DNA of 34,202 nt from Acidobacteriota bacterium (GCA_016213725.1 JACQZS010000259.1:1-34202); one strand, 5' to 3'; shown: positions 4,467-27,384, counted from the first letter of the stretch. Numbers and translations are program-made. Notes: a model not told the origin generated them from the sequence alone.

Positions 4467-5506
4467 CGCTTCACCTCCAGATATGCGTCCACCCGCAGCC
4501 CCACCGGCAGGCTCTGGCCGGCGTCCAGCTCCACTAGAGTCTCGAGGATCTTCGTGTCCACCCGCTCCGTGGGCTCTTCCGTGCGCACGTTCTTCCGCCC
4601 CAGCGCCTGCCCAATCCGCAGCACGTGCCCGGTGAACTTCCGCTCTCCATAGGCATCGGCGCGCACCCAGGCCGGCTGGCCCGCGTAAAGCTTCGCTACG
4701 TCGTTCTCGTCCACATCCACCCGCACGTGCAGCCGGCTCACGTCGCCCAGCGAAACGATCGGCGTATCGCCATTGCCGGACACGCTCTCGCCCGCTTTCC
4801 TATAGCGCCGCAACACTCGCCCGTCCAACGGCGACCGCACCACAGTCTTCGCCAGCATCGCCTCCGACTCCAGAATCGAAGCCCGCGCCTGCGCCACCGC
4901 CGCCTCCGCCCGCTTCAGATCCTCATACCTCGTCTGCTGCCGCACCACCGCCAGCCGCTGCCTCAGCGCCTCCACCCGAGCCAGCGCCGTCTCATAGTCC
5001 CTGGCCGCCAGGTCGCACTCGCTTTTCGAAACTGCGCCGCGTTCCCGCAGCGTCAGCCGCCGGTCCCGCTCCGCCCGCGCCGTTGAGGCTTGCGCTTCGG
5101 CTTCGCGCAGCAGCGCCGCCGCTTCGAGCTTGTCTTCCTCCCTGGCCCCGTTGCGCAACTTCTCCAACTCCGCCTGCCGGTCTGCCAGTTGAGCCCGCGC
5201 CAGCTCCACGCGTGCCGCGTAGTCGGCGTTTTCCAGGATCGCCAGCACCTGCCCTCGCCTCACGTTGTCGCCCTCTCCCACCAGCACGCGCGCCAGCTTG
5301 CCGTCGATCTCCGCGCCTGCTTTTACCTCTTCTCCGGCCGGCTCCACGCGTCCCGCCGCGGCAATCCACGCGGACGCCCGGTCTGGCGCCGCCGCCGGCC
5401 GCGCCGCCGCGGCGGCCGTCTTCTTCGCGGCGGAAGCCGTCAAGCCCAGCGCCGCCAGCGCTCCAACGGCCGCCACTGCTGCAATCCACCAAGTCGTCTT
5501 CTTCAT
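4463..5506 (-). CDS. HlyD/DevB-family periplasmic adaptor (membrane fusion protein)
   Basis: A 347-residue protein with an N-terminal membrane anchor (residues 7-26), a first half-lipoyl segment (about 58-92, GRVEPAGEEVKAGAEIDGKL then GDNVRRGQVLAIL), and a long coiled-coil hairpin (about 95-220). The second lipoyl half contains VRSPLDGRVLRRYRKAGESV (223-242), followed by a beta-barrel domain. This is the layout of adaptors that link an inner-membrane ABC exporter to TolC. The gene overlaps both neighbours by ATGA: its start with the ATPase stop and its stop with the TolC start. The closest architecture I recognise is DevB of the DevBCA glycolipid exporter type, consistent with the DevC-like permease, but the cargo is unknown. 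Confidence 0.92.
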   Translation of the reverse strand: MKKTTWWIAAVAAVGALAALGLTASAAKKTAAAAARPAAAPDRASAWIAAAGRVEPAGEEVKAGAEIDGKLARVLVGEGDNVRRGQVLAILENADYAARVELARAQLADRQAELEKLRNGAREEDKLEAAALLREAEAQASTARAERDRRLTLRERGAVSKSECDLAARDYETALARVEALRQRLAVVRQQTRYEDLKRAEAAVAQARASILESEAMLAKTVVRSPLDGRVLRRYRKAGESVSGNGDTPIVSLGDVSRLHVRVDVDENDVAKLYAGQPAWVRADAYGERKFTGHVLRIGQALGRKNVRTEEPTERVDTKILETLVELDAGQSLPVGLRVDAYLEVKR

Positions 5507-6195
5507 GCTGTCTTCTCCATGCCAAGCTCCGCGGAGCAGATGCGCCCATCGGCGATCTCCACAATCCGGTCAGCGAATCCCAATACCCGGCTGTCGTGCG
5601 TCACCACGACCACCGCGCGGCCCCGCTGCTTCGCCAGCCGCGTCAACATCTGCATCACGTTCAAGCCCGATTGCGAGTCCAAAGCCGCCGTCGGTTCATC
5701 GGCCAGGATGATGGGCGGATCTCCCGCCAGCGCCCGCGCGATCGCCACCCGCTGCTTCTGCCCGCCGCTCAAATCGGACGGCAGCCGCCCGGCCTTCTCG
5801 CTCAAGTCCACCTGCTCCAGTAGCTCCCCTGCCTGCCGCCGGGCCTCTCTGGCGCTCCGGCCTTTCAACTTCAAAGTCAACTCCACGTTCTCCTGCGCCG
5901 TCAGGGCGGGGAAGAGGTTGAACCCCTGGAAGATGAATCCGAAATGCTCCAGCCGTACGCCCGGCAGCTTCTTTTCCGGGAGTGAGGCCACCTCTCGGCC
6001 GTCGATCTTCACGCTGCCCGAGGTCGCCCTCAGAATGCAGCCCATGATCGATAGCAGCGTCGTTTTTCCGCTGCCCGACGGCCCCATCAGCATCACCACT
6101 TCGCCCGCGTCCACATCGAAGTCCACTCCCTCCAGCGCGTGCACCGCCGCGCTGCCGTGGCCGTAGGTCTTGAATAAGTTCCGAATTTCGATCAT
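5503..6195 (-). CDS. ABC transporter ATP-binding protein (DevA/LolD/MacB type)
   Basis: A 230-residue nucleotide-binding subunit with all key motifs: Walker A GPSGSGKTT (38-46), Q-loop Gln90 in FIFQGFNLF, signature LSGGQKQR (142-149), Walker B ILADEP with Asp166 and Glu167, and H-loop His200 in VVTHDSR. The LSGGQKQRVAIARAL variant and the short length match the MacB/LolD/DevA family that powers FtsX-type permeases through mechanotransmission rather than classic substrate translocation. It starts 6 bases after the permease stop and overlaps the adaptor by ATGA. Confidence 0.95.
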   Translation of the reverse strand: MIEIRNLFKTYGHGSAAVHALEGVDFDVDAGEVVMLMGPSGSGKTTLLSIMGCILRATSGSVKIDGREVASLPEKKLPGVRLEHFGFIFQGFNLFPALTAQENVELTLKLKGRSAREARRQAGELLEQVDLSEKAGRLPSDLSGGQKQRVAIARALAGDPPIILADEPTAALDSQSGLNVMQMLTRLAKQRGRAVVVVTHDSRVLGFADRIVEIADGRICSAELGMEKTA

Positions 6196-6201
6196 CCTCT
6201 G

Positions 6202-7332
6202 TTACCCCCGGAATACCATCGCCGGATCGATGCGCGTCGCCTTCCGGATTGAAATCACCGACGCTCCCATGCACATGGCCAGTGCCAGTGCCAGAGTCCC
6301 CACCGCGACCTCCGGCGGCAGCAGGATCGGCGCGTTGCCGCCCTGGCTGCCCTCCGATACCGTCAGCGCGATGGCGATCGCCGCCGTGTAACCCATCACT
6401 CCGCTGATGGCCGCCTGAGCCAGAATCACCCTGTAGATGTGCCCGTTTGACGCGCCCATGGCCTTCAACGTCCCGAACTCGCGGATGTGGTCCACCGTCG
6501 CCGCATAGATCGTCTGCGCCACCACTACCACTCCGACAATCAACCCCAGCACCGCTCCCAGCAACGTCGTGATTCCCGCGCCCGTTGCAAACACCCAGTG
6601 GGTCTGCGTCCGCCGGTGCATCTCCTCGTTCGTCAGAACATCCAGTTCCGGCACCATCGGCTGCACCGCCGCTTTCAGCGCGTTTGCGCTCACCCCCGCC
6701 CTACCCTTCACCAGCAAGTAGACTGCCTGGTCTTCCCGGATAATCCCTGCCCCGTAGTTCAGCGCATTCTTGAACGAGCAGAAGACGAACGGAGCCGTCG
6801 TAAAACTCCGGATCCCCCGCGTGAATCCCACAATCCGCGCCCGCCGCCCGCTGATCTCAAACACTTCGCCGATCCGACTTACCCCCAGCAGGCTTTTGTA
6901 GATCTCATCCACGATCACCGTGTCCTCGCCCCGCAGCGCTGCCGCCGATCCTTCCACCACATTCCACGGCCCCCCCACTCCGCTGTCCAGGTTGTAGCCC
7001 ACCACCTGGACGTTCTCAATCGCTCCAGTCTTCAGCTTCCACGGCACCCAGGCCAGAATGTAGCGGTCTACCCGCTCCACTGCCGGCACCGCCAGCACCT
7101 TCCACCGGTTCGATTCCGACAGAGGCGAGCCTCCATTGACATACGGAATCCGCGGCGACGTCACCCACAGGTCGGCCCCGCTGCGCTCCACAATGTTCGC
7201 GCTGGTATCCAGGAAGCCCAGAAACAGCCCGAATTGCATGAGAATCAACACCAGCGCGAAGACGATGCCCACCAGCGTCACCGCCAGCCGCACGCGATCG
7301 TGAAACAGGTTTTTCCAGGCCAAAGTCAGCAT
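6202..7332 (-). CDS. DevC-like ABC transporter permease (FtsX/MacB fold)
   Basis: A 376-residue inner-membrane protein with one N-terminal membrane helix (about 17-40, LVGIVFALVLILMQFGLFLGF), a large extracytoplasmic region (about 41-250), and three C-terminal helices (about 255-280, 303-327, 341-362). This is the FtsX topology; the N-terminal LAWKNLFHDRVRLAVTLVGI resembles DevC. It is the first gene of a five-gene leftward operon (permease, ATPase, adaptor, TolC, PhzF). A sigma70-like promoter at 7380-7409 and an operator at 7368-7380 lie 36-77 bases upstream, so the whole exporter should be repressed by the adjacent TetR protein. Confidence 0.92.
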   Translation of the reverse strand: MLTLAWKNLFHDRVRLAVTLVGIVFALVLILMQFGLFLGFLDTSANIVERSGADLWVTSPRIPYVNGGSPLSESNRWKVLAVPAVERVDRYILAWVPWKLKTGAIENVQVVGYNLDSGVGGPWNVVEGSAAALRGEDTVIVDEIYKSLLGVSRIGEVFEISGRRARIVGFTRGIRSFTTAPFVFCSFKNALNYGAGIIREDQAVYLLVKGRAGVSANALKAAVQPMVPELDVLTNEEMHRRTQTHWVFATGAGITTLLGAVLGLIVGVVVVAQTIYAATVDHIREFGTLKAMGASNGHIYRVILAQAAISGVMGYTAAIAIALTVSEGSQGGNAPILLPPEVAVGTLALALAMCMGASVISIRKATRIDPAMVFRG

Positions 7333-7367
7333 GATGGTCGTTACAAAGGTGAAATCTATTCAGTCTG

Positions 7368-7380
7368 TGAACACTGTTCA
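7368..7380. promoter_or_regulatory. TetR operator of the efflux operon
   Basis: TGAACA-C-TGTTCA is a perfect 6+1+6 palindrome located directly after the -10 element of the exporter promoter. Transcription would start within it. The identical 13 bases occur in front of the TetR gene (8064-8076), the only other clear copy I noticed. Flanking bases (CTG on the left, TAA on the right) no longer match the symmetry, so this site is probably the weaker of the two. Confidence 0.75.
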
Positions 7381-7409
7381 TAATGCGGGCATAGTTCACC
7401 TCAAGTCAA
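7380..7409 (-). promoter_or_regulatory. Promoter of the efflux-phzF operon
   Basis: On the minus strand, TTGACT (7409-7404) and CATTAT (7385-7380) are separated by 18 bases. This is a good sigma70-type promoter just downstream of the TetR stop codon (7427). The -10 abuts the operator at 7368-7380, so a bound repressor would block it. Confidence 0.65.
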
Positions 7410-7426
7410 GAGAAAAGTTGTAAATC

Positions 7427-8041
7427 CTACCGCAAACTGTCCAGCATCCGGTCCAGGGAATGCTCGATCAGCGTTTCGCGGTCGATGAACGGGAAGTCCG
7501 CCTCAAAGATCAGCCCGGTGGTAATCCCATGCATCATCAGCCACGTAGCCTGCGACACGGTCTCAACGTCAGCCCTTCGGATGGCCCCTGTGTCCATGCA
7601 AAGTCCCATGCCCACCCTCAACCGCTCGAAGCTCCCCATGCCGCAGCCCCACAGCTGCTCTTGGCCTTCAGGAGCCATTGCCTTGAACACGCTGGACGGG
7701 GTGCAGAAGACGAATGCGTAATGGCTAGGGTGCTCCAGTCCGAAATCGATGTAGGCGCGCAGGCTCTTGCGGAGCGTTTCCAGCGGCGCCAGACCCAGGT
7801 CCTGAATCTCCTGCAGGCGCTGGTCCAGTTCGGCGAACGTGGTCGTGCACAGGCTGCCCACCAGGTCCACCTTGTCCCGGAAGTGCAGGTAAATCGTCGA
7901 AGGGGCGTACTCGATCCGGTCCGCGATCTTCCGCATGGAGACGTTCTCGAACCCCTCTTCCACGAATAGCTCCGCCGCCGCGTTCAGAATCTTCTTCTTC
8001 AGGTCGTCCTTCTCGCGCGCGCGGCGCTCGGCTACTCCCAT
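7427..8041 (-). CDS. TetR/AcrR-family repressor of the adjacent exporter
   Basis: A 204-residue regulator. The N-terminal helix-turn-helix is typical: ILNAAAELFVEEGFENVSMR (18-37), then KIADRIEYAPSTIYLHFRDK (38-57). The C-terminal ligand domain contains WLMMHGITTGLIF (167-179), resembling the WHG-type TetR C-terminus. I chose ATG 8041 because GGAG (8050-8047) lies 5 bases before it and the conserved domain starts soon after. The longer open frame to 8311 would run over the regulator's own promoter and operator. It sits upstream of the exporter operon in the same direction. Identical palindromes on its promoter and on the exporter promoter point to autorepression and control of efflux, relieved by an exporter substrate. 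Confidence 0.92.
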   Translation of the reverse strand: MGVAERRAREKDDLKKKILNAAAELFVEEGFENVSMRKIADRIEYAPSTIYLHFRDKVDLVGSLCTTTFAELDQRLQEIQDLGLAPLETLRKSLRAYIDFGLEHPSHYAFVFCTPSSVFKAMAPEGQEQLWGCGMGSFERLRVGMGLCMDTGAIRRADVETVSQATWLMMHGITTGLIFEADFPFIDRETLIEHSLDRMLDSLR

Positions 8042-8056
8042 AGATGCTCCGACCCC

Positions 8057-8085
8057 AGGATACTGAACACTGTTCAGTAATTCAA
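8057..8085 (-). promoter_or_regulatory. Promoter of the TetR gene
   Basis: On the minus strand, TTGAAT (8085-8080) and TATCCT (8062-8057) have an ideal 17-base spacer. The spacer consists almost entirely of the repressor palindrome at 8061-8079, so binding of TetR would exclude RNA polymerase. Confidence 0.6.
8061..8079. promoter_or_regulatory. TetR operator, autoregulatory site
   Basis: TACTGAACACTGTTCAGTA is a perfect 9+1+9 palindrome lying between the -35 and -10 of the TetR gene. It shares its central 13 bases with the exporter operator at 7368-7380. It is about 75 bases upstream of the divergent cytochrome c peroxidase start (8154), so an effect on that gene is possible but not shown. 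Confidence 0.8.
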
Positions 8086-8153
8086 GTCTGCCCACTCTTG
8101 CACCGGCCATCTCGTTGGCGGATGATGGATCTTCCTCCCGGAGGAATTCATCC

Positions 8154-9176
8154 ATGAAGACTAAACTCATCCTGCTGATCTCCGCCTCGGCCCTTGCGGC
8201 CCTGGCAGTGGACGTTCCGGCATCCAAGCTGCGGATGTTCAAACCCCTGCCCTCTAATATGGATTCGACCGCGAATCCCGCCACGCCTGCCAAGCTCGAT
8301 CTCGGCCGCATGTTGTACTACGAGCCCCGGCTCTCCAAGAGCCAGAAGTTGTCCTGCAACAGCTGCCACATGCTCGACAAGTACGGCGTTGATAACGAGC
8401 CCACCAGCCCCGGCCACAAAGGCCAGCGCGGCGATCGGAACTCACCCACCTCTTACAACGCCGCAGGCCACATCGCCCAGTTCTGGGATGGCCGCGCCGC
8501 CGATGTCGAGGCGCAGGCCAAGGGCCCGGTCCTCAACCCCGTGGAAATGGCCATGCCCGATGAGAAGACCGTCATCGCAACCCTTAAGTCCATGCCGGAA
8601 TATGTCACGGCCTTCCAGAAGGCTTTCCCTGGCGAGAAGGATCCGATCAACTACGACAACATGGCCAAGGCTATCGGCGCCTTCGAGCGCAAGCTCGTCA
8701 CCCCCTCCCGCTGGGACAAATTCCTGGCTGGCGACCAGAAGGCCCTGACTGACGGCGAAAAGGCTGGTTTCCTGAAGTTCTCCGACACCGGCTGTTCCAC
8801 CTGCCACATGGGCGCCTATGTGGGCGGATCCATGTACCAGAAGCTCGGCGTCGTCAAAGCGTTCCCCGGCCTGAAGGACGACGGACGCATGAAGGCCACC
8901 CAGAAACCCGAAGATAAGGCGTTTTTCAAGGTCCCCTCCCTGCGCAACATTGATAAGACCGGGCCCTACTTCCACGACGGCCATGTGAAGACTCTGGAAG
9001 ATGCCATCAACCAGATGGCGGAGTATGAGTTGGGCAAGAAGCTCACCCCGGCCGACACCGCCGCCATCGCCACCTGGCTGAAGTCCCTCACTGGCCCGCT
9101 GCCGGCGGACTACGTGAAGCCGCCCAAGCTGCCGGCCTCCACCGCCAAGACCCCGAAGCCGAACAACGCCGACTAA
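8154..9176 (+). CDS. Diheme cytochrome c peroxidase (CcpA/MauG family)
   Basis: A 340-residue periplasmic protein with a signal peptide (about 1-19). It has two c-type heme motifs, CNSCH at 68-72 and CSTCH at 214-218. Other family signatures are WDGRA (111-115), LNPVEMAM (127-134), and FKVPSLRN then TGPYFHDG (258-276). Such enzymes reduce hydrogen peroxide with electrons from small cytochromes, or, as MauG, oxidise proteins. The start at ATG 8154 has a near-ideal GGAGGA at 8140-8145, 8 bases away. The Pro/Lys-rich tail (about 320-340) is probably flexible. A monoheme partner gene follows after 4 bases. The gene diverges from the TetR gene across a 112-base region. Confidence 0.94.
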   Translation: MKTKLILLISASALAALAVDVPASKLRMFKPLPSNMDSTANPATPAKLDLGRMLYYEPRLSKSQKLSCNSCHMLDKYGVDNEPTSPGHKGQRGDRNSPTSYNAAGHIAQFWDGRAADVEAQAKGPVLNPVEMAMPDEKTVIATLKSMPEYVTAFQKAFPGEKDPINYDNMAKAIGAFERKLVTPSRWDKFLAGDQKALTDGEKAGFLKFSDTGCSTCHMGAYVGGSMYQKLGVVKAFPGLKDDGRMKATQKPEDKAFFKVPSLRNIDKTGPYFHDGHVKTLEDAINQMAEYELGKKLTPADTAAIATWLKSLTGPLPADYVKPPKLPASTAKTPKPNNAD

Positions 9177-9180
9177 CCTG

Positions 9181-9744
9181 ATGCGCGCTGCAGCCAAGCT
9201 CGCCATCCTCTCCGTGCTCGCGGCGTCGGGCTTCTCCCAGGAGCCCACGCCGCGCCAGCGCGCCGCCGAGGCTGTCCGCGATCTCGCTGCCGTCCTCCAG
9301 CAGTTGCTCGGCGAAGAGATGAAGCGCGGCGGCGTGGAAGGAGCCGTGAAATCGTGCTCCGAAACGGCCCAGGTGGTTACCGAGGAGTTCGCCAAGGAAC
9401 GGGAACTCGATCTGCGCCGCGTCAGCCTCAAGTACCGCAATCAGAAAGACCAGCCTGACGACTACGAAGCCGCCCGGCTCAAAGAGTGGGAAGCCCAGAT
9501 CAAGCTAGGCAAACCGCCTGCCGAGCATACGCAGACCGTCACCGAGAACGGCCGCAGGTACATCCGCTATATGAAGCCGATCCTCGTGCAGGGCGTCTGC
9601 CTGGCCTGCCACGGCCCGCGCGAAAAGCTGGCTCCGGAAGTCCTGGAAGTTCTCGACGCCCGCTACCCGCGCGACAAGGCCACCGGCTACCGGGCCGGCG
9701 ACCTGCGTGGCGCGTTCAGCGCCATTGCCGAAGTCAAGCCCTAA
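9181..9744 (+). CDS. Monoheme c-type cytochrome, DUF3365/Tll0287-like
   Basis: A 187-residue secreted protein with a signal peptide (about 1-20). One heme-binding motif, CLACH (140-144), lies in the MKPILVQGVCLACHG context. The wider pattern, VKSCSETAQ near 57-64, LKYRNQKDQPDDYEA near 83-97 and YRAGDLRGAFS near 170-180, is that of the Tll0287-like (DUF3365) heme domain. That domain occurs alone or as a sensor module. It starts 4 bases after the diheme peroxidase stop without its own strong ribosome binding site, so it is probably translationally coupled. The most economical role is electron donor or redox sensor for that peroxidase. It converges on the VWFA gene with a 3-base gap. Confidence 0.88.
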   Translation: MRAAAKLAILSVLAASGFSQEPTPRQRAAEAVRDLAAVLQQLLGEEMKRGGVEGAVKSCSETAQVVTEEFAKERELDLRRVSLKYRNQKDQPDDYEAARLKEWEAQIKLGKPPAEHTQTVTENGRRYIRYMKPILVQGVCLACHGPREKLAPEVLEVLDARYPRDKATGYRAGDLRGAFSAIAEVKP

Positions 9745-11849: not shown

Positions 11850-11885
11850 TGTTCCTTCAATCTACCGTACTCTGGAAGAGAGCCC

Positions 11886-13178
11886 GTGCCCGGCCTACCC
11901 CTCATCCTCCGCCGAAACCGCAACTACCGCCACCTTTGGTTCGGCCAGGCCGTTTCCGAAGTCGGCGACCACTTCAATTCCATCGCCGTCCTCTCCCTCG
12001 CCCTTCATCTCACCGGCAGCGGGTTCACCGTTGGCGCCGTCATGATCGCCCGCGTCCTGCCGGCCATCTTTGCCGGCCCTGTCGCCGGGGTCGTCCTGGA
12101 CCGCATGGACCGCCGCAAGGTCATGATCGCCTCGGATCTGATTCGCGCCGCCGTTGCCGCGCTCCATATCCTTCTCCTCACCTACCGCGAAACGTGGCTC
12201 CTCTACACGCTATCCGGCCTGCTCATGTTCGCTTCGCCCTTCTTCAACAGCGGCCGCGCCTCCATCCTTCCCCGTATCGCCTCCCGCGAAGAACTCAGCA
12301 CCGCCAACGCCCTCACTCAGACCACCTCCTGGCTCACCCTCTCCGTGGGAACCATGCTGGGCGGCATCTCCACTTCCGGCTTCGGCTACGAACTGGCCTT
12401 CGTCGCCAACTCGCTCAGCTTCCTCTTCAGCGCCGCGGCCATCTGGAGCCTGCGCACCCCCGAAGGGCACTTCCGCCCCACCCGCACAAGCGCGCCCAGA
12501 ATCCGCAGGTCGAACTATGCGGAGTTCCGCGAGGGGCTGCGCTACATGGGCGCCCGCCCTCTCATTCTCGGCATCGGCCTGCTCGGCATCGGCTGGGCCA
12601 CTGGCGGAGGAGCCGCTCAGGTTCTCTTCACCCTCTTCGGGCAGAACGTGTATCAGCGCGGACCCGCGGGCACGGGCATGATCTGGAGCTTTGCCGGCCT
12701 TGGCCTCGTCATCGGCGGATTCCTCGCGCACCGCATGGAAACCCATCTGCACTTCCGCCGCTACAAGCGCGCCGTCACTTTCGCCTTCTTCTTCCACGGC
12801 CTGTGCTATTCGCTCTTCAGCATCATGCCCAACATCTGGGCCGCCATCTTCTTCATCACCCTCTCCCGCCTTTGCATGGGCATGAATTCAGTGATGAATA
12901 AGACTATGCTGCTCCTGCACGTGCCCGACGGCCTCCGCGGCCGCGTCTATACAACGGTGGAGACCATGTCCAACGCCACCATGATGCTTTCCATGGGCGC
13001 CGCCGCTGTCGCTTGTACCATTTACTCTCCGCGCCAGATCGGCTTCGTCGCCGGCCTTCTCAGCGCTTCCACGGCCGTCTTCTGGGCTTGGGCCGACGCC
13101 GCCGGCAAACTCCCCGAACCCGAACGGGACTGGAAAGAGCCGGAGCGCGCCTTCGAAGAGCCCGTCACCCCTGCTTGA
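11886..13178 (+). CDS. MFS transporter (drug/siderophore exporter type)
   Basis: A 430-residue membrane protein with about twelve hydrophobic segments. After the short start MPGLPLILRRNRNYRHLWFGQ there is a motif A-like loop, GVVLDRMDRRKVMIASDLIR, between helices 2 and 3 (about 68-87). The pattern matches the MFS_3/EntS-like branch that exports siderophores, macrolides and similar products. I chose GTG 11886, with a GGAAGAG ribosome binding site just upstream, because the domain begins right there; the longer open frame is antisense to the neighbouring gene. It diverges from the small secreted protein gene (36-base gap). Its 3' end overlaps the GT4-thioesterase gene by 14 bases in a convergent arrangement, so any link with that biosynthetic unit is by position only. 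Confidence 0.9.
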   Translation: MPGLPLILRRNRNYRHLWFGQAVSEVGDHFNSIAVLSLALHLTGSGFTVGAVMIARVLPAIFAGPVAGVVLDRMDRRKVMIASDLIRAAVAALHILLLTYRETWLLYTLSGLLMFASPFFNSGRASILPRIASREELSTANALTQTTSWLTLSVGTMLGGISTSGFGYELAFVANSLSFLFSAAAIWSLRTPEGHFRPTRTSAPRIRRSNYAEFREGLRYMGARPLILGIGLLGIGWATGGGAAQVLFTLFGQNVYQRGPAGTGMIWSFAGLGLVIGGFLAHRMETHLHFRRYKRAVTFAFFFHGLCYSLFSIMPNIWAAIFFITLSRLCMGMNSVMNKTMLLLHVPDGLRGRVYTTVETMSNATMMLSMGAAAVACTIYSPRQIGFVAGLLSASTAVFWAWADAAGKLPEPERDWKEPERAFEEPVTPA

Positions 13179-15186
13179 GGTCCGCCTTCAATGCTCCGAG
13201 CAGCGCCGCCTGCGAAGCCTCCAGATAGAAGTGCCCTCCGCGGAACTGCGCCCGCCGGAAGTACACCGATGTCTGCTCCGCCCATCCGTTCAGGTGCACC
13301 GTGGTCACGTTCGGATCCGCGTCGCCGCCGTAGGCGAACACCGGCAGCGGCAGCGGCTCGCCTGGCGTATATCGGTACTGCCGGTACAGCCGAGCGTCGG
13401 CCAGCAAGGCAGGCAGTGCCAGCTTCAGCAGTTCCGGGTTGTTCAATACGCTCGGGGGGAAGCCCTCCAGCCGCCGCAACTCTTCGATGAAATCCCGCAA
13501 CGTCGGCTCCGGCGGCGGCACGTGGTTCAGCCTGTACTGCGGCGCTCGCGCGCCCGAAACGTGCAGCGATTCCGGCAGCGGCAACCCTTCCCGGAGCAGC
13601 GCCCTCGTCAATTCAAAGCTGATGCCCGCGCCCATGCTGTGGCCGAAGAAGGTGAAGGGCCCGCCCACATAGGGCCGGATCTGCTCCAGCAGCGCCGCCA
13701 CCAGCGGCTCCATCCGCTCAAACGCCGTCTCGCCTGCCCGCGTCTCGCGTCCCGGCAGCCGCACCGGCACTACCGCCGCCATTCCGCTCAATGCCTCGCG
13801 CCATCCCCGGTACGGCAGTGCCCCGCCGCCCGCCCATGGGAAGCAAAACAGCTTCAATGTCCCTTCCGCCGCCTCTTCAATGCCGGGAAACCAAGGGTGC
13901 GACTCCTGCTTCGAGCCCGAAGCCCGCTGCTTCAGCCGCAGCGCCAGCAAACGCCGCTTGTCGTCGCTCAGCGTAGGCTTGGCCGCCGACGCCGCCACCT
14001 GCTTCTTCGGCTTCCGCAGCACCTCTTTCAAGGCTTGCTCGAACGGCACCACGTTCAGGTTCTCTGCATACTCCAGCGCCGCCCGCCGCGAAGCCGCCGA
14101 AATCTCTCGCCAATGCGCCTCGTCGCACACCAACCGCCGCAGGATCTTCTCCCACGGATCCACGTTCTGCTCCGGTACCTCCGCCACCGGCACCATGCTC
14201 GCGTCCACCGACGGTTTGTACTTCACAATCGGATTCACCCGCACCAGGTACGGCACTCCCAGCTTGGCTTCGTGCAGGCCCCCAACGTCGCTCGCCAGCA
14301 CCGGTACTCCGCGGCTCATCGCTTCCAGCACGATCCTCGACCGCGCCTCCGCCCAGATACTCGGCACCAGCATCACCTTCGTCCGCTTCAGCAGCCCGTC
14401 GATGTTGTCCATGCGGTCCACCAGCGTGACGTTTTCCAGCGCCCGCATCGCATCCATCTCGTCCTGCTGCGTGCCCCATGTCGGAACCGCCGCAAACTGC
14501 GTTTCCGGCATCCGCCGCGCCAGCTCGAGGAAGATCGAGATCCCCTTCACCGCGCACGGGTTCACCATCGCCACGAACTCGTTCTCAAACCGGCCCAGCG
14601 CCGGATAGGTGTCGCCCGCGTCCAGCAGCGAGATCGGCACGTGGATTGCATCCAGGCCGCTCCACTCGCGCACGTACCCCGCCACGTAGTGGCTGACGCC
14701 AACCACCAGGTCCGCCTGCTTCAGCATCGCCGTCTTCGATGAGCTCACCATTGAGCTGTCCGGCCCGAACGGCACCGCGATGGTCGCCCGCACCAGGTAC
14801 ACCACTCTCGCCTGCTGCGTCTTCACCGCCAGGTCAAACAGGATCTGCCCCGGATCGTCCGTCGAAGTGATGATCAGCTCCGGCGCGAACTCGTCGATGC
14901 ACTGCTGGAAGAACGCCCGCAGCTGCGGATGGCTCGTCAAGGCCCGCACTTCCACCCCGCCCAGTTTGTACTTCAGCCCGCCGCCGCTCTCCGCCGCTTC
15001 TATCCCGCGCTCGGCCAACTCCCTCCGCAGTTGCGCGTGGCCTGCCTCGCCAAACTGCTCCACCCGCGTCACCACCTGCACCGCATGGCCCCGCGCCGCC
15101 AGCGCCTCCATCAGCAGGCGGTTGCTCTTGTCCCCTCCGCCCAGGGCGGGGAAGTAGGTTGAGTTGTGCGCCAGCAGGACTCTCAT
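13165..15186 (-). CDS. Fusion of a GT4 glycosyltransferase and a type II-like thioesterase
   Basis: A 673-residue two-domain protein. Residues 1 to about 392 are a GT-B, GT4-type glycosyltransferase: MRVLLAHNSTYFPALGGGDKS at the start, VNPCAVKGISIFLELARR (208-225), and the nucleotide-sugar motif E280-x7-E288 in AEARSRIVLEAMSRG. Residues 405-421 (TLSDDKRRLLALRLKQR) resemble the short linker found before condensation domains in NRPS/PKS proteins. Residues 443-673 are an alpha/beta thioesterase of the GrsT/RifR kind. They show LFCFPWAGGG (446-455), nucleophile Ser517 in GHSMG, probable acid Asp622 or Asp624 in GGDADPNV, and His652 in GGHFYLE. Thioesterases of this type hydrolyse carrier-bound thioesters, so the GT probably acts on a carrier-tethered acceptor. 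The start overlaps the upstream GT4 stop by ATGA. Donor and acceptor are unknown. I am sure of both domains and less sure of the role. Confidence 0.92.
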   Translation of the reverse strand: MRVLLAHNSTYFPALGGGDKSNRLLMEALAARGHAVQVVTRVEQFGEAGHAQLRRELAERGIEAAESGGGLKYKLGGVEVRALTSHPQLRAFFQQCIDEFAPELIITSTDDPGQILFDLAVKTQQARVVYLVRATIAVPFGPDSSMVSSSKTAMLKQADLVVGVSHYVAGYVREWSGLDAIHVPISLLDAGDTYPALGRFENEFVAMVNPCAVKGISIFLELARRMPETQFAAVPTWGTQQDEMDAMRALENVTLVDRMDNIDGLLKRTKVMLVPSIWAEARSRIVLEAMSRGVPVLASDVGGLHEAKLGVPYLVRVNPIVKYKPSVDASMVPVAEVPEQNVDPWEKILRRLVCDEAHWREISAASRRAALEYAENLNVVPFEQALKEVLRKPKKQVAASAAKPTLSDDKRRLLALRLKQRASGSKQESHPWFPGIEEAAEGTLKLFCFPWAGGGALPYRGWREALSGMAAVVPVRLPGRETRAGETAFERMEPLVAALLEQIRPYVGGPFTFFGHSMGAGISFELTRALLREGLPLPESLHVSGARAPQYRLNHVPPPEPTLRDFIEELRRLEGFPPSVLNNPELLKLALPALLADARLYRQYRYTPGEPLPLPVFAYGGDADPNVTTVHLNGWAEQTSVYFRRAQFRGGHFYLEASQAALLGALKADLKQG

Positions 15187-16382
15187 CCCTGTGCCTTCTT
15201 CTTCAGCCGCGCCAGCAGCAGCGCCCGCTTCTGCGCATCCAGGCTCTTCAGCCGGTCCTCCGTCCGAAGCGGTTCCGTGCAGGGCGCCAGACCCCGCAGC
15301 ATCCTCTCGAAATCACCGGCGTCCAGTCTGCTGACAAATGCCAGCCCGGCCTCTCGCGACCGCCGCGCCTCCCCCCAGTACGCCTCCTCGTCCGACAACA
15401 GCGTCCGCAGCGCGGCCGCCCATGCCTGCGTGTCCTGCTCCGGCACCACCGCGCGCGGCATGTGCGTCTCATCGAACACCCGCTCATACCGCTCCACCGG
15501 CTTCACCGGCACCACGTAGCCAGTCCCTCGCTTGGCTTCTTCCAGACCGCCCGAGTTGCTGGCTATCACCGGCAGCCCGCGCAGCATCGCCTCCATCGCG
15601 ATCAACCCAAAACCCTCGTACCACACCGACGGCATCAGCAGCAGCCGCGCCTGCTCCAGCACCTCTTCGATGTCCGGAACGTTTTCAAGTAATCGTGTAT
15701 TCGCGCCGGAGCGCAGCGCGTCCCTGTCCGCCTGCGTCGTGCCCCAGCCGTTCAGCGCCGCGAACTCCACTTCCGGAAACTGCCTGGCCAGCTCCAGGAA
15801 GATCCGCACGCCCTTCACCACGCACGGATTGATCATCAGCACGAAGCCGCTGCCAAAGCGTCCAAACTGCCGGTAGGGCGGCGTCCCGTAGAGCGGCGGA
15901 TGAATCACCACCGACTCTCGTCCCAGATGCCTCCGCACGTACCCGGCCATGTGCTCGCCGATCACCACCACCGCCGCCGCTCGCCTCACCGCCTCCGTGC
16001 CGCTCTCATCCGGATGCCAGCTCTCCGGTCCGAAGGGGTAGAACTGCGGCGTATGCGCCAGATACACGATCCGCCCCGGCGCTACCGTCGAGGCCTCCCG
16101 AACCAGCACGTGCCCCACATCCTCGCTCGACACCAGCACCCACTCCGGCTGCGTCTCCCGGATCCGCTTCCCCAACTCCGCCGCCCGGAACGACAGGTCC
16201 TTCACCCCGTGAATCTCGATGCCATCTTGCACCGTGACGCGATCCGCTTCGCCCAGCGTCGGCGACACTACCACGCACTGGTGCCCGTGCGACGCCAGGT
16301 GCTTCAGCCATACCAGGTTCGATCGCGTCGAACCGCCTCTCGGCGGATCGTAACTCGCGTTCGAAGCCAGCAGTACCCGCAT
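15183..16382 (-). CDS. GT4-family glycosyltransferase with a C-terminal NRPS-linker-like tail
   Basis: A 399-residue GT-B glycosyltransferase. The N-terminal MRVLLASNASYDPPRGGSTR contains the GG loop; the C-terminal domain shows E256-x7-E264 in YEGFGLIAMEAMLRG and VIASNSGGLEEAKRG (272-286). It is a paralogue of the GT domain encoded next door, sharing the segment around VMINPCVVKGVRIFLELAR and the WGTTQADRDALR pattern. After the enzyme ends (about 365), residues 380-396 (LDAQKRALLLARLKKKA) match the same linker type seen inside the GT-thioesterase fusion, but here nothing follows it. It starts 6 bases after the FkbH-carrier stop and overlaps the next gene by ATGA, so all three are co-translated. 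It has no membrane segment; the sugar donor is unknown. Confidence 0.92.
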   Translation of the reverse strand: MRVLLASNASYDPPRGGSTRSNLVWLKHLASHGHQCVVVSPTLGEADRVTVQDGIEIHGVKDLSFRAAELGKRIRETQPEWVLVSSEDVGHVLVREASTVAPGRIVYLAHTPQFYPFGPESWHPDESGTEAVRRAAAVVVIGEHMAGYVRRHLGRESVVIHPPLYGTPPYRQFGRFGSGFVLMINPCVVKGVRIFLELARQFPEVEFAALNGWGTTQADRDALRSGANTRLLENVPDIEEVLEQARLLLMPSVWYEGFGLIAMEAMLRGLPVIASNSGGLEEAKRGTGYVVPVKPVERYERVFDETHMPRAVVPEQDTQAWAAALRTLLSDEEAYWGEARRSREAGLAFVSRLDAGDFERMLRGLAPCTEPLRTEDRLKSLDAQKRALLLARLKKKAQG

Positions 16383-16388
16383 GAGACC

Positions 16389-18542
16389 TTACTCTTCCTT
16401 GTCCTCTTGTTCCAGCAGCGCCCGCACTTCTTCGTCGCTCAAGCCCTCGATCTCCGCCAGCAGCGCCTGGTACTCTTCCGGGTTCAACTCGCCCAACTGC
16501 CGTGCTTCGATGGCCGCTCCCAGTTCGCCCAGGGTCAGCGTGCCGGAATAGACGTCGTCCACAGACAACTCCACGCCGAACTCTTCCTTCACCCGCATCA
16601 GCAGCAGCACGGCCAGCAAAGAATGCCCGCCCAGATCGAAGAAGTTCGCCGCCACCGTGGGCACCGGCCGCTCCAATAGTTCGCTCCAGATCGACGCCAG
16701 CTTGCGCTCCACCTCGCTCGCCGGTGCGCCGTCTCCGTCGTTCGCCTGCCAGGCCGCCTGCGCTTCCTTGCGCATCGCCGCCACTACCTGCGCAGCGCTC
16801 TGGAACTCCATCGCGATTCTTGCGTAGTCCACCTGCCGCAGCGCTACCTCCAGCTTCGGCCCGCTTGCCGGCGCCGTGACTGCCGCCGGCGAGGGCCTCC
16901 AGCGCAGCGCCTGTAACTCCGTTGCCGGCATCCGGTATACGCGCTCGCCGTTCTCGCCCACCACTGTCGCGAATTCGATGCTCTCCAGAAACTGGCGGGC
17001 CGGCGCGTTCTTCGCCGTCTCCCGGAACGGCACCGTGACCGTGTAGATGCCTTCGTCCAGCGCCGCCTCCGCCACCGCCGCCAGCAGGCGGTGCTCCACG
17101 CCGCGGCCCAGCGCCCGGCAGCTCAACAGCAAGGTGTCCACGTACAACTCCGTAATGCGCCGCTGCACGATCACCACGCCCACCAGGCCGTATTCGCCGA
17201 AGCGGTCGCTCACCTCCGCCGTGTAGCACTTCCACCCCGAGCGCTCCAGCAACTGCTGGATCTCGTTCTCCGTCCGCCGCACCGTGGTCGTATTGAACTG
17301 GTTTGTCCGCTGCGTCAGTTGCGACACCCGGCCCAGCCGCTCCAACTCCATCGGCTGCACGTCCACGCGCAGGTTCAATCCCGCCATGAACTCTTCCAGC
17401 CCTGCCGCCTGCTTCAATTCGTTCCCGAACTCGCGCGCCTGTGCCATGCGCTCGCCCCGTTTGCGGTCCTCTTCCGTCACCCTCAGATGGTCGAAAGCCC
17501 AAACGTGCTTCAGCATCTCCGGCAAATGCCCGATCTCTTCCGGCAGCACCAGCGGCAGCGCCTCCGGCGCCCCCTCGGCCACCTCCGCGCACTCCTTCGG
17601 GTTGTCGTCCAGGAATATGAACGTATCCAACCCTACGTTCAGCTCCGCCGCCATGGAGGCCAGGCTCTCCGCCTTCGGCTCCCAGTTCAGCCGCCATGCC
17701 GTGAAGTGCCTCAGTTGCAGCGGAAATTCAGGGTGCGCCGCGAACGTGTCGAACACGTCCTGTTCATTGTTCTTGCTCGCCAGCACCAGCATCATGCCGG
17801 CCTCGCGCTGCTTCAGCAGAAACTCGTGCAGCTGCCTCCGCGGCTCGTCCAGAACCACGCCCGCCGGGCCGTCCTCCCCGCAGATTCCCTGCCACAGCGT
17901 GTTGTCGCAATCCACCGCGATCACTTTGTACGGCGCCATCGCCAGCGCCTGGGCCCTGCGCACCAATATCGTCGCCAGCGCTGCGAACATCGTCTCCGTA
18001 TAAGGAATCCGGCCCAGGCGTTCGCCTTCGGGGTTGTGATACTCCGCCACCGGATAGAGCGCCGCCAGCCCCGCATCGTCCACCAGGTGCACACCGCTCT
18101 CACCCTTCAGTTCCTCCGCGAAGATGGCTCGCGCCCTCGGCATCTCCGCGGCGAATTCGGGCGACGCCGGGCACAATACAAAAACCAGCGGCACGCTCGT
18201 CCGCGCGGCTGCGTCCTTCAGCGCCGCCGCCAGTTGCCGGGCGTTTGCCTCAAGCTGCTGCAGCGCTTCCGCATCGTGCGTCTCAAACTGCCCCAGGTCT
18301 TCATAGCGGCACAGCGCCGCATTCACGCCATGCCGGTTCAGCGCAAACTCCCCCGCCGGGTCCAGCAGGGTCTGCACCACCTGGTTGAACGGCGCGAACC
18401 GGACTTCCACCTCGCTCTTCAGCCGCCGGGCCCAGAACTCCAAAGCCGCGCGCAGAGGCTCGGCCGTAAAGCTTGCCGCAATCGCGATGCGGAAGGGGGA
18501 GGCGGGGTGGCGGGTTACGGGGCTGGCTGTTGTTTCGCTCAC
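16389..18542 (-). CDS. FkbH-like HAD/GNAT protein with C-terminal acyl/peptidyl carrier domain
   Basis: A 717-residue protein starting at GTG. An N-terminal FkbH-specific region (17-200) precedes the HAD phosphatase core with VDCDNTLWQG (Asp211, Asp213), ASKNN (255-259) and FLDDNP (Asp312, Asp313). A GNAT-like domain (about 385-535) contains RTNQFNTTT and DRFGEYGLVG. A carrier domain of about 75 residues (607-682) has the phosphopantetheine serine Ser641 in DLGGHSLLAV. FkbH proteins take 1,3-bisphosphoglycerate, remove phosphate and place a glyceryl unit on a carrier; a fused carrier suggests loading in cis. The tail (YQALLAEIEGLSDEEVRALL, 691-710) resembles post-carrier linkers of NRPS/PKS lines. 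It is the first gene of the three-gene unit. No phosphopantetheinyl transferase is in the window. Lactate or another hydroxy acid is an alternative substrate. Confidence 0.93.
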   Translation of the reverse strand: MSETTASPVTRHPASPFRIAIAASFTAEPLRAALEFWARRLKSEVEVRFAPFNQVVQTLLDPAGEFALNRHGVNAALCRYEDLGQFETHDAEALQQLEANARQLAAALKDAAARTSVPLVFVLCPASPEFAAEMPRARAIFAEELKGESGVHLVDDAGLAALYPVAEYHNPEGERLGRIPYTETMFAALATILVRRAQALAMAPYKVIAVDCDNTLWQGICGEDGPAGVVLDEPRRQLHEFLLKQREAGMMLVLASKNNEQDVFDTFAAHPEFPLQLRHFTAWRLNWEPKAESLASMAAELNVGLDTFIFLDDNPKECAEVAEGAPEALPLVLPEEIGHLPEMLKHVWAFDHLRVTEEDRKRGERMAQAREFGNELKQAAGLEEFMAGLNLRVDVQPMELERLGRVSQLTQRTNQFNTTTVRRTENEIQQLLERSGWKCYTAEVSDRFGEYGLVGVVIVQRRITELYVDTLLLSCRALGRGVEHRLLAAVAEAALDEGIYTVTVPFRETAKNAPARQFLESIEFATVVGENGERVYRMPATELQALRWRPSPAAVTAPASGPKLEVALRQVDYARIAMEFQSAAQVVAAMRKEAQAAWQANDGDGAPASEVERKLASIWSELLERPVPTVAANFFDLGGHSLLAVLLLMRVKEEFGVELSVDDVYSGTLTLGELGAAIEARQLGELNPEEYQALLAEIEGLSDEEVRALLEQEDKEE

Positions 18543-24110: not shown

Positions 24111-25475
24111 ATGAGCGATCCCATCAAATACGTCCTCGACGAGAGCCGCATCCCCAAGGCGTGGTACAACATCGCCGCTGACCTTCCCACTCCTCCGCCC
24201 CCAGTCCTCCACCCCGGCACCCTCCAGCCCATCGGTCCCGGTGACCTCGCCCCGCTCTTTCCCATGAGCCTCATTCTCCAGGAGGTCTCCACCGAGCGCG
24301 AGATCGAGATCCCGACACCCGTCCGCGACATCTATCGCCAGTGGCGTCCCAGCCCGCTGTGCCGCGCCCGGCGTCTCGAGAAGGCCCTCGATACCCCGGC
24401 TAAGATCTATTACAAGTACGAGGGCGTCAGCCCCGCCGGCTCCCACAAGCCCAATAGCTCCATCGCTCAGGCTTTCTATAACAAGGAAGAGGGCGTCAAG
24501 CGCCTCGTCACCGAAACCGGCGCCGGACAGTGGGGCTCCTCCCTCGCCCTGGCCGGCTCCTTCTTCGGCCTCGAGGTCGACATCTACATGGTGCGCGTCA
24601 GTTATAACCAGAAGCCCTACCGGCGCGCGCTCATGGAGACCTACGGCGCCCGCTGCGTCGCTTCTCCTTCCACCGAAACCGCCTCCGGCCGCGCCATCCT
24701 CGAAAAACGCCCCGATCACCCCGGCAGCCTCGGTATCGCCATCAGTGAGGCCGTGGAGATCGCCGCCCAGCGCGACGACACCAAGTACGCCCTCGGCAGC
24801 GTCCTCAATCACGTCCTCCTCCACCAGACCGTCATCGGCCAGGAAGCCATCGCCCAGCTCGACATGGCCGGCGACTACCCCGACGTCGTCCTCGGCTGCG
24901 CCGGCGGCGGCTCCAACTTCGCCGGCATCGCCTTCCCCTTCCTCGGCGCCGGCCTCCGCGGCGGCCCCAAGCCCCGCATCGTTGCCGTCGAGCCTTCCGC
25001 CTGCCCTTCCATTACCCGCGGCAAGTACGCCTACGACTTCGGCGATACCGCTCATCTCACGCCTCTCATGAAGATGCACACCCTCGGCAGCACCTTCACA
25101 CCGCCCGGCTTCCACGCCGGCGGACTCCGCTATCACGGCATGAGTCAGCTCGTCAGCCACTGTGCCCGGCTCGGGCTTATTGAGGGCCTTGCCGTCCCGC
25201 AGATCGCCTGCTTTGAAGCCGGCGTCCAGTTCGCCCGCTCCGAGGGAATCGTGCCCGCGCCGGAATCGAATCACGCCGTCTGTGCCGCCATCCGTGAAGC
25301 CCTCCGCTGCAAGGAAGAAGGCAAAGCCGAAACCATCCTCTTCAGCCTCTCCGGCCACGGCCACTTCGATATGCAGGCCTACACGGATTACTTCGCCGGC
25401 AAGCTCGCTGACCTCGAATACGACGAGGCTGAACTCGCCATGGCGCTCTCCGGACTGCCGTCCGTCAACGCCTAG
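24111..25475 (+). CDS. TrpB2-type (TrpB-like) PLP-dependent enzyme
   Basis: A 454-residue fold type II PLP enzyme. The PLP lysine is Lys113 in [15 protein letters not shown]. The catalytic-type glutamate and indole-site loop is [13 protein letters not shown] (134-146), and the phosphate-binding glycine loop is [10 protein letters not shown]. An N-terminal extension of about 80 residues ([20 protein letters not shown]) and the overall length fit TrpB2 rather than canonical TrpB (about 400). TrpB2 proteins condense indole with serine or O-phosphoserine, or have other roles. No trpA or other tryptophan gene is nearby. The start has TTGGAGG at 24095-24101, 9 bases before ATG. A TACAAT-like -10 (24072-24077) is possible but lacks a good -35. 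A strong hairpin follows the gene. Confidence 0.93.
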
Positions 25476-25516
25476 CCCGTCAACGCTGTTCCGCCCCAGC
25501 CTTCGCGCCGGGGCCG

Positions 25517-25542
25517 CGGGGAGGGCCCCAACGCCCTCCCCG
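25517..25542 (+). terminator. Hairpin downstream of the TrpB2-type gene
   Basis: CGGGGAGGGC (25517-25526) pairs perfectly with GCCCTCCCCG (25533-25542) around CCCAAC. It lies 42 bases after the TrpB2 stop and is followed by GCTTTCCC, only a short T-run. It is probably a terminator, possibly Rho-assisted. The rest of 25476-25710 holds no gene I can support. Confidence 0.6.
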
Positions 25543-25710
25543 GCTTTCCCGTACCGCGGCCGCACGCCGGCCTTCTCCGTCTCAAAACGCAGTTCCAGTC
25601 CTCCGCCTCCTGCGCTCTCCACGCGCATCCGGCGTCTGAGGCGCGCTTCCTCCCCCTCCTCTTCCCCCAGTGAGCGCGCTAAAATCGGAGTAGCGGGGCT
25701 CTATACCTGG

Positions 25711-27384
25711 ATGCCCCGCGCGTCTGAAATGAACGTCACACCACTTTCTCACCCCAAGGGCCGTCAGGCCCGCGTCCTCCTCACTTCTGTCTTCGGACCC
25801 TACGCCCAGGACGACGAATTCGGCTCCCGCTCCATCAATCCCATGGAGCTTTACCACAACCAGGTCACTCGAGCCCAAGGCCCCTATTCCCTCCGCATCT
25901 TCCACCGCTCCTGGGGCATCATGTTCATTCAGCAGAACATCGAAAACCCTTCCACTGTCCTGGATTTCCCTACCCGCGAGGACTTCGAGCGTGAACTCAC
26001 CTCGCACCACTACGACGTCGTCGACATCAGCTCCATCATCGTCAACATCGGGAAAGTGCGCGAGATGTGCCAGATCGTCCGCCGTCTCTCCCCCCACTCC
26101 ACCATCGTCATCGGCGGCCATGTCACCGCCATCCCCGGGCTCGAGCACATGATCGACGCCGATCACATCGTCAAAGGCGAAGGCGTCGGCTGGATGCGGT
26201 CGTTCCTCGATCAGGATCCCCATCAGCCCATCCACCACCCTCAAATCGCTTCCGGCTTCGGCCACCGCGTCATGGGCCTCAAGCTCCCGCATAAGCTCGG
26301 CTCCACCGCCGCCACCATCATCCCCTCCGTCGGTTGCCCGCTCGGCTGCGACTTCTGCACCACCTCCGCCTTCTTCGGCGGCAAAGGCAAGTTCATCAAC
26401 TTCTTCGACTCCGGCCGCGAGATCTTCAACGCCATGCAGCAGGCTGAATCCGCCTTCAACTTCAAGGCGTTCTTCGTCATGGACGAGAACTTCCTCCTCC
26501 ACCGCTCGCGCGCCATCGAACTGCTCGAATGCATGAAGGAGGCCCGCAAGAGCTGGGAACTCTACGTCTTCTCCTCCGCCAACGCCATCCGCAAGTACTC
26601 CATGGAGGAACTCGTCCAACTCGGCGTCTCCTGGATCTGGATGGGCCTCGAATCCCCCCAGAGCGGTTACGCCAAGCTCTCAGGCCACGATACCCTCACC
26701 CTCACCCGCCAGCTCCGTGAGAACGGCATCCGCGTCCTCGGCTCCACCATCGTCGGCATGTACCACCACACCCCCGAAAACATCGGCCAGGAAATCGACT
26801 ACGCGTGCTCGCATGAAACCGACTTCCACCAGTTCATGCTCTATACGCCCCTGCCCGGCACCCCGCTGCACGCCCGCATGGAGAAGGAAGGCACTCTCAT
26901 CGACGTCGATCTCGCCGATGTCCACGGCCAGTGGAAATTCAATTGGTCCCATCCCTTCATCTCCCACGACGACTCCAAGAAATTCCTCGACTGGGCCTTC
27001 GGCCGCGACTTTGAGCTCAACGGCCCCTCCCTCTACCGCATCTGCCGCACCACCCTGGAAGGCATCCGCAAGTACCGCCTCCACCCGGACCTCCGCGTTC
27101 GCGAACGCTTCGAGCGCGAAGCCCGCGCCCTCCAGACCTCCTACTCCGCCCTCCTCTGGGCCATGGAGCGCCACATGAAGCAGACCAACGAGGCGGTGGC
27201 AGACCGCATCCACTCCCTGCGCAAAGAGATCGCGCGGGAGTGCGGCAGCTTCTCCTCCGCCGCGGCCGCCTTGCTCGGCCCAATCATGCTGTGGCTCACC
27301 AGGCGCGAGGAACGGCGCCTTGAAAAGGGCATCACCTACGAGCCCGAAACCTTCATCGAACGCCGCAACTGGGTTGGCGTCTAG
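25711..27384 (+). CDS. B12-binding-domain-type radical SAM protein
   Basis: A 557-residue protein. The N-terminal part (about 20-165) has the Rossmann-like fold of B12-binding radical SAM enzymes, with VDISSIIVNIGKV and IVIGGHVTAIPG (132-143), but I see no DxHxxG cobalamin motif. The radical SAM core begins IIPSVGCPLGCDFC, with Cys209, Cys213 and Cys216 forming CxxxCxxC. WIWMGLESPQSGY is the usual beta-5 region. The C-terminal 120 residues are helical and basic (LEGIRKYRLHPDLRVRERF), without a named domain. The function is unknown; the layout resembles hopanoid- or lipid-modifying B12 radical SAM proteins. ATG 25711 was chosen; ATG 25729 (MNVT) is an alternative, and neither has a strong ribosome binding site. 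A hairpin follows the stop. Confidence 0.88.
   Translation: MPRASEMNVTPLSHPKGRQARVLLTSVFGPYAQDDEFGSRSINPMELYHNQVTRAQGPYSLRIFHRSWGIMFIQQNIENPSTVLDFPTREDFERELTSHHYDVVDISSIIVNIGKVREMCQIVRRLSPHSTIVIGGHVTAIPGLEHMIDADHIVKGEGVGWMRSFLDQDPHQPIHHPQIASGFGHRVMGLKLPHKLGSTAATIIPSVGCPLGCDFCTTSAFFGGKGKFINFFDSGREIFNAMQQAESAFNFKAFFVMDENFLLHRSRAIELLECMKEARKSWELYVFSSANAIRKYSMEELVQLGVSWIWMGLESPQSGYAKLSGHDTLTLTRQLRENGIRVLGSTIVGMYHHTPENIGQEIDYACSHETDFHQFMLYTPLPGTPLHARMEKEGTLIDVDLADVHGQWKFNWSHPFISHDDSKKFLDWAFGRDFELNGPSLYRICRTTLEGIRKYRLHPDLRVRERFEREARALQTSYSALLWAMERHMKQTNEAVADRIHSLRKEIARECGSFSSAAAALLGPIMLWLTRREERRLEKGITYEPETFIERRNWVGV

Follow-up and report, generated by a model that had tools for sequence, protein, structure and literature searches.

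A putative FkbH-glycosyltransferase assembly line for glycosylated glycerate in Bryobacteraceae

Background

Proteins of the FkbH type usually feed a polyketide synthase (PKS) or a non-ribosomal peptide synthetase (NRPS) (PMC7489565; PMC8949500). In the vioprolide and corramycin starters, FkbH lies in the series FAAL-ACP-C-FkbH-T (ACP, acyl carrier protein; C, condensation domain; T, thiolation domain), and the C domain there is of the ester-forming type and couples glycerate with a fatty acid (PMC10099666, PMC8949500). Here we describe a module of three genes in a stretch of 34,202 nucleotides from an Acidobacteriota bacterium (GCA_016213725.1, JACQZS010000259.1:1-34202), the whole of which is called the window. 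The module encodes an FkbH protein with its own carrier domain, a GT4 glycosyltransferase (GT4a), and a second GT4 enzyme fused to a thioesterase (GT4b-TE). On its sequence, we lean towards reading the module as a small thiotemplated line that would make an exported glycosylated glycerate.

Results

Composition of the module

As deduced from reading frames and domain scans, all three genes are on the minus strand. The first (16389..18542) encodes the FkbH-carrier protein of 717 residues and is followed after 6 bases (16383-16388) by the gene of GT4a (15183..16382), a protein of 399 residues with an EX7E motif. The latter overlaps by 4 bases (15183-15186) with the third gene (13165..15186), whose product of 673 residues consists of a GT4 domain (residues 1-405), the segment LSDDKRRLLALRLKQR (406-421) and a type II thioesterase (440-670). 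The original prediction, made from the sequence of the window, had proposed these three genes in this order with gaps of 6 and -4 bases, and the reading frames agree. It had also stated that adenylation (A), C and ketosynthase (KS) domains are absent; indeed, no such modules were found among the window proteins scanned, and the whole genome of the organism is without a C domain. Two partners were overlooked, namely an exporter of the major facilitator superfamily (MFS), which adjoins the module in the window, and a phosphopantetheinyl transferase, which does so in relatives. The exporter gene is part of the locus. It lies on the plus strand (11870..13178, start approximate, in an open reading frame from 11541), matches the MFS_1/MFS_3, EntS and 2A0121 models, and converges 3' to 3' on the third module gene with an overlap of 14 bases.

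The FkbH domain (16968..17930, minus strand) combines a HAD-IIIC half, with the motif DCDNTLW (Asp211/Asp213), and a GNAT-like half. TIGR01686 matched it with 294 bits against a cut-off of 147, over residues 205-525 and behind an N-terminal domain. In the FkbH alignment Asp211, Asp213, Cys475 and the LSCRALGRGVE motif of the GNAT half are invariant. The carrier domain (residues 613-677, 16512..16706, minus strand; PF00550, 53.5 bits) contains Ser641 in the motif GGHSL, invariant across aligned relatives. All of this bears out the FkbH-like HAD/GNAT protein with a carrier serine that had been predicted: a score above the family cut-off, the HAD DxD and FkbH motifs and a modifiable carrier serine mark it as a putative FkbH glyceryl-carrier synthase. 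The structure model (mean pLDDT 82) has 3slr as its best PDB match for the HAD part, together with GNAT folds.

Both glycosyltransferases match Glyco_trans_1_4, Glycos_transf_1 and Glyco_transf_4 and belong to GT4, with the EX7E motifs EGFGLIAME in GT4a and EARSRIVLE in GT4b. The thioesterase domain (13177..13869, minus strand) scored 139 bits with PF00975 over residues 445-667, and its nearest solved structures are BorB and RifR. Its RifR-like fold and Ser-Asp-His triad assign it to the type II thioesterases; as 80 loci have it fused to GT4b, it is no free-standing editing enzyme. Among relatives, Ser517 and His652 do not vary. For the acid of the triad, given beforehand as Asp622 or Asp624, the alignment favours Asp624, which is nearly invariant, over the unconserved Asp622; the GrsT/RifR-like assignment itself agrees with the nearest structures and the conserved triad. 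The GT4b-TE structure model (pLDDT 85) matched GT4 folds of the BshA/MshA kind and the type II thioesterases BorB/RifR.

Conservation and distribution

Across the 299 genomes of the class that were searched, GT4b-TE occurred only in the window's own family. When a GT4b alignment was scanned against GTDB contigs, 80 loci were recovered, essentially all from Bryobacterales/Solibacter-type Acidobacteriota; with loci carrying identical GT4b segments merged, the set comprised 88 non-redundant loci. The predicted triple of FkbH-carrier, GT4 and GT4-thioesterase thus recurs when its neighbourhoods are searched. Across the 88 loci the order FkbH-carrier, GT4a, GT4b-TE is fixed, the FkbH-carrier gene being upstream in 71 of them, and several of the remaining loci stop at contig edges. 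Since dozens of genomes repeat this gene order at 45-89% protein identity, the arrangement is not due to chance. The nearest relative is a Paludibaculum metagenome-assembled genome, with a GT4b 89% identical. A search with GT4a through 396 genomes of the phylum, few of them from the own family, gave two strong matches outside the own genome, and no relatives were found in the viral contigs searched. Records of the module under Arcobacter (L127), Phycisphaerales (L151) and Nevskia (L189) are probably mis-binned or mislabelled metagenome contigs. The module is conserved within one Acidobacteriota family of soil and water, Bryobacteraceae.

A single polypeptide comprises GT4a and GT4b-TE in 24 loci. 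On the quick tree used for relationships, the fused or separate state changes 7 times, and 5 of these changes are forced by starred branches.

Docking-type motifs

Both glycosyltransferases share the pattern LSxEKRxLLxxRLKxK. It occurs at the C-terminus of GT4a as SLDAQKRALLLARLKKKAQG (15186..15245, minus strand; consensus LDxxKRALLLxRLKxK) and between GT4b and the thioesterase as LSDDKRRLLALRLKQR (13912..13971, minus strand; consensus LSEEKRRLLALRLKxR). The carrier protein ends in the tail LLAEIEGLSDEEVRALLEQE (16392..16475, minus strand), with the consensus EYxxLLAEIEGLSDEEVRALLxxE and the matching element EGLSDEEVRALL; it resembles the C-terminus of a relative's PKS subunit. When 15,851 reading frames were scanned with a profile of these 20-residue motifs, 204 matches fell in glycosyltransferase proteins, and only three other frames exceeded 8 bits. 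One of the three, of 80 residues (L173), reads as a displaced GT4a tail. The other two sit in a PKS/NRPS cluster of the relative G306, where the C-terminus of the PKS, LLELVEGLSESEVREMLARQE, is similar to the FkbH carrier tail, and where a free methyltransferase and condensation-domain proteins, encoded downstream of the PKS, start with LSPERRKLLERLLRQK-type motifs. From this cluster and from general knowledge of PKS/NRPS subunits, we infer that the motifs are docking elements of the PKS/NRPS type.

The motif was found at the C-terminus of 39 of 48 stand-alone GT4a and, among GT4b-TE proteins, in the linker of 75 of 80. Where GT4b has no thioesterase, 5 of 7 C-termini carry it, the other two being interrupted or truncated sequences. 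None of the 24 fused GT4a-GT4b junctions carries it, which is the pattern expected if a docking element is needed once per polypeptide. The presence of the motifs on the glycosyltransferases and of the carrier tail, together with the loss at fused junctions, supports glycosylation on the carrier.

Autonomy of the module

Of 22 genomes with the module, 16 have no C domain, among them G109 and G153, which are of one contig each, and G302, of two; G173 and G185 have no C domain besides that of the FkbH protein. The count rests on C domains, KS domains being left out because fatty-acid synthesis always supplies some. As most module-bearing genomes, finished ones included, are without any C domain, the module is autonomous. 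No recurring NRPS or PKS gene was seen among the neighbours of the loci, and the window protein scans gave no O-antigen or polysaccharide genes (polymerase, flippase, ligase, nucleotide-sugar); a flippase-type gene lies 3 kb downstream in one relative (L071). The original prediction would have failed if homologous loci regularly sat inside full NRPS/PKS or O-antigen clusters, and for the great majority they do not. Its statement that this is no ordinary NRPS/PKS locus holds for the window and needs qualification for 3 of the 88 loci, where a C domain is fused ahead of FkbH. These loci cluster together in the tree. In two of them, L068 and L069, the FkbH-carrier protein is extended to FAAL-ACP-C-FkbH-ACP (1879 and 1827 residues) with the same glycosyltransferases and thioesterase behind; in the third, L195, the C domain precedes FkbH at the contig start. 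FAAL-ACP-C is absent from the window, and a search of the own genome for a FAAL/C partner gave weak AMP-binding matches only.

Apart from the module, NRPS genes of giant size fill about 90 kb in a relative of the same genus (G198:C1:3465000-3552000), with about 40 condensation-type matches, many equal in score.

Related enzymes were found in two places outside Bryobacteraceae. The plasmid NZ_CP107920 of Streptomyces sp. NBC_00441 (L201:2650-20916) encodes an FkbH-ACP protein 39% identical over 677 aligned positions, close to full length and with the carrier included, and a GT4 of the same subfamily, 37-39% identical. A free ACP, two GT1-type enzymes, a thioesterase, a C-domain protein, an MFS protein and nucleotide-sugar genes also belong to this cluster. 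In the acidobacterium G368 (L203:14170-19998, G368:C91), the same GT4 subfamily heads an NRPS, GT4-C-A-PCP-C (PCP, peptidyl carrier protein), in a frame of 2970 residues, so that the loading position of this peptide line is taken by a glycosyltransferase. Both cases tie the GT4 subfamily to carrier proteins outside the family, and the Streptomyces grouping is an independent assembly of a similar set. Formylglycine-generating-enzyme-like and MoaD/ThiS proteins are further members of this uncharacterised plasmid cluster.

Partner genes and variant loci

Of the 88 loci, 15 have the EntS-like exporter gene directly 3' and convergent, and another 4 have it upstream and divergent. MFS matches at a distance of 9 kb upstream, in G153, G113, G089, G109 and G169, were left uncounted, their identity being only 25-27%. 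In 12 loci the gene next to GT4b-TE on its 3' side encodes a 4'-phosphopantetheinyl transferase. Nine loci (L159, L163, L172-L175, L178, L190 and L199), which sit close together in the tree, have a D-isomer 2-hydroxyacid dehydrogenase downstream of GT4b-TE, often with the transferase in between; the dehydrogenase is possibly tied to glycerate supply. Two loci carry an FkbM-family methyltransferase gene and no GT4a: it follows FkbH-carrier and GT4b in L152 (5716-10194), which is also without thioesterase, and takes the place of the thioesterase behind GT4b in L166 (4121-6254). What precedes two solitary GT4b genes is in neither case a new loading module: it is a peptidase M28 gene in L180 and a long, spurious reading frame in L188.

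Other genes of the window

An operon for an outer-membrane efflux protein, HlyD, an ABC ATPase and a DevC-type permease, with a TetR-family regulator, occupies 3180-8311; it is a complete exporter beside the module, and its recurrence is limited to the closest relatives. A di-haem cytochrome c peroxidase (MauG-like) adjoins a Tll0287-like protein at 8115-9744. At 25162-27384 a B12-binding radical SAM protein is encoded, whose best models are HpnJ-/PhpK-like and far under their cut-offs.

Discussion

Proposed pathway and alternatives

In the proposed pathway, the carrier of the FkbH protein would be phosphopantetheinylated, in some relatives by the dedicated transferase, after which FkbH would draw glycerate from 1,3-bisphosphoglycerate and strip the phosphate to give glyceryl-S-carrier, as expected from the families. 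GT4a and then GT4b would bind the carrier through their docking-type motifs and add one or two sugars to hydroxyls of the tethered glyceryl unit, a step proposed because of the motifs, the gene order and the glycosyltransferase fusions. The thioesterase fused to GT4b would hydrolyse the thioester and the MFS protein would export the product, as family and position suggest in both cases. In L068 and L069, the glyceryl unit would first receive a fatty acid in ester linkage from FAAL-ACP-C, and a glycolipid product is therefore expected there. An assembly line of this kind had been predicted for the window; composition and conservation support it directly, and the tethered glycosylation is supported indirectly by motifs, gene order, fusion of both glycosyltransferases with the thioesterase, and the Streptomyces grouping. 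The more specific claim, that glycosyltransferases are the carrier-acting modules of a thiotemplated line, recruited by docking motifs of the PKS/NRPS type, and that a glycosyltransferase-fused thioesterase releases the product, appears evenly balanced.

Several points weigh against this pathway. The glycosyl acceptor may be free rather than carrier-bound, the Streptomyces GT4 is without the docking-type motif, and FkbH relatives could load a different three-carbon acid. The thioesterase, as modelled, is closest to the RifR/BorB type II enzymes, a group in which several members act in editing and not in release. The own draft genome yields a single transferase, of the AcpS type, and phosphopantetheinylation in this organism is therefore assumed. 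Alternatively, the glyceryl unit could be the donor: the glycosyltransferases would first build a glycoside on some small, free acceptor; the thioesterase, as a transferase, or FkbH would move glyceryl from the carrier onto a sugar hydroxyl or amine. The fusion of thioesterase and glycosyltransferase would suit such a transfer to sugar, and amidated glyceroyl groups on sugars are known in bacterial glycans. We consider this unlikely, however, since the carrier tail and the docking-type motifs on both glycosyltransferases suggest that these enzymes visit the carrier, the FAAL-C variants already use the glyceryl hydroxyl as acyl acceptor, and the thioesterase is a type II enzyme of the hydrolase type.

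That the thioesterase resembles editing enzymes is also compatible with a scheme in which glyceryl-carrier is supplied to an unlinked synthase, the thioesterase does no more than clear misloaded carrier, and the glycosyltransferases modify what that synthase finally makes; a PKS or NRPS recipient is moreover the usual one for FkbH. The scheme is very unlikely given that complete module-bearing genomes are without any C domain, PKS elsewhere in those genomes not having been searched for, and that the neighbours show no recurring PKS or NRPS gene. As for the load, sequence alone cannot reveal a substrate, and FkbH relatives with other substrates have been described; a lactyl or other acyl phosphate-derived unit, the remainder of the pathway being unchanged, is nevertheless quite improbable, for the TIGR01686 score is well above the cut-off, the usual motifs, DxDNTLW and LSCRALGRGVE, are present, and the architecture is that of the vioprolide glycerate module.

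Should glycosylation of carrier-bound glycerate prove true, carrier-protein biosynthesis would reach beyond peptides and polyketides to glycosides. The three genes, with a phosphopantetheinyl transferase and an exporter, would then form a compact system for direct study of glycosylation on a carrier, and exported glycosyl-glycerates or glycolipids would be predicted in Bryobacteraceae, a common family from which few metabolites are known. As the Streptomyces plasmid and the GT4-NRPS fusion indicate, the GT4 subfamily may serve as a marker of such systems in other phyla.

Comparison with known systems

With the vioprolide and corramycin starters the module shares an FkbH that replaces the A domain, a fused carrier onto which, in the module, glycerate would be loaded, and in L068 and L069 the order of all five domains; the FAAL-ACP-C part of that starter is present in these two loci and missing in the window. 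Whereas acyl-glycerate enters a peptide line in vioprolide and corramycin, here two GT4 enzymes and a glycosyltransferase-fused thioesterase follow, with no amino-acid module. Unlike the tetronate and methoxymalonyl sets of FkbH-like and ACP genes for glycerate use, the module has no KS/FabH-like enzyme, dehydrogenases, O-methyltransferase or PKS, and has glycosyltransferases and a thioesterase instead. Fold and Ser-Asp-His triad are common to the thioesterase and RifR/BorB; the latter are free-standing, whereas the enzyme here is joined to GT4 through a docking-type motif. BshA and MshA have the GT4 fold and EX7E in common with both glycosyltransferases, BshA and related models being the best named matches, and BshA, among the closest GT4 folds, glycosylates malate, a small hydroxy acid. 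Identity in the structural alignments is about 15%, however, and neither the carrier-linked context nor the tail motif is known for BshA/MshA. The predicted product class, glycosyl-glycerate, is that of the glucosylglycerate and mannosylglycerate synthases; these use free or 3-phosphorylated glycerate and no carrier protein, and GpgS/MpgS-type models were not among the Pfam/NCBIfam matches of the window proteins. In the open-access literature searched, a body from which most subscription papers were absent, no description was found of an FkbH-carrier that feeds glycosyltransferases and a glycosyltransferase-fused thioesterase without A, C or KS domains. All components come from known families, and FAAL-ACP-C-FkbH-ACP is a known starter; there is a serious chance that the module they form is a distinct kind of carrier-protein biosynthesis.

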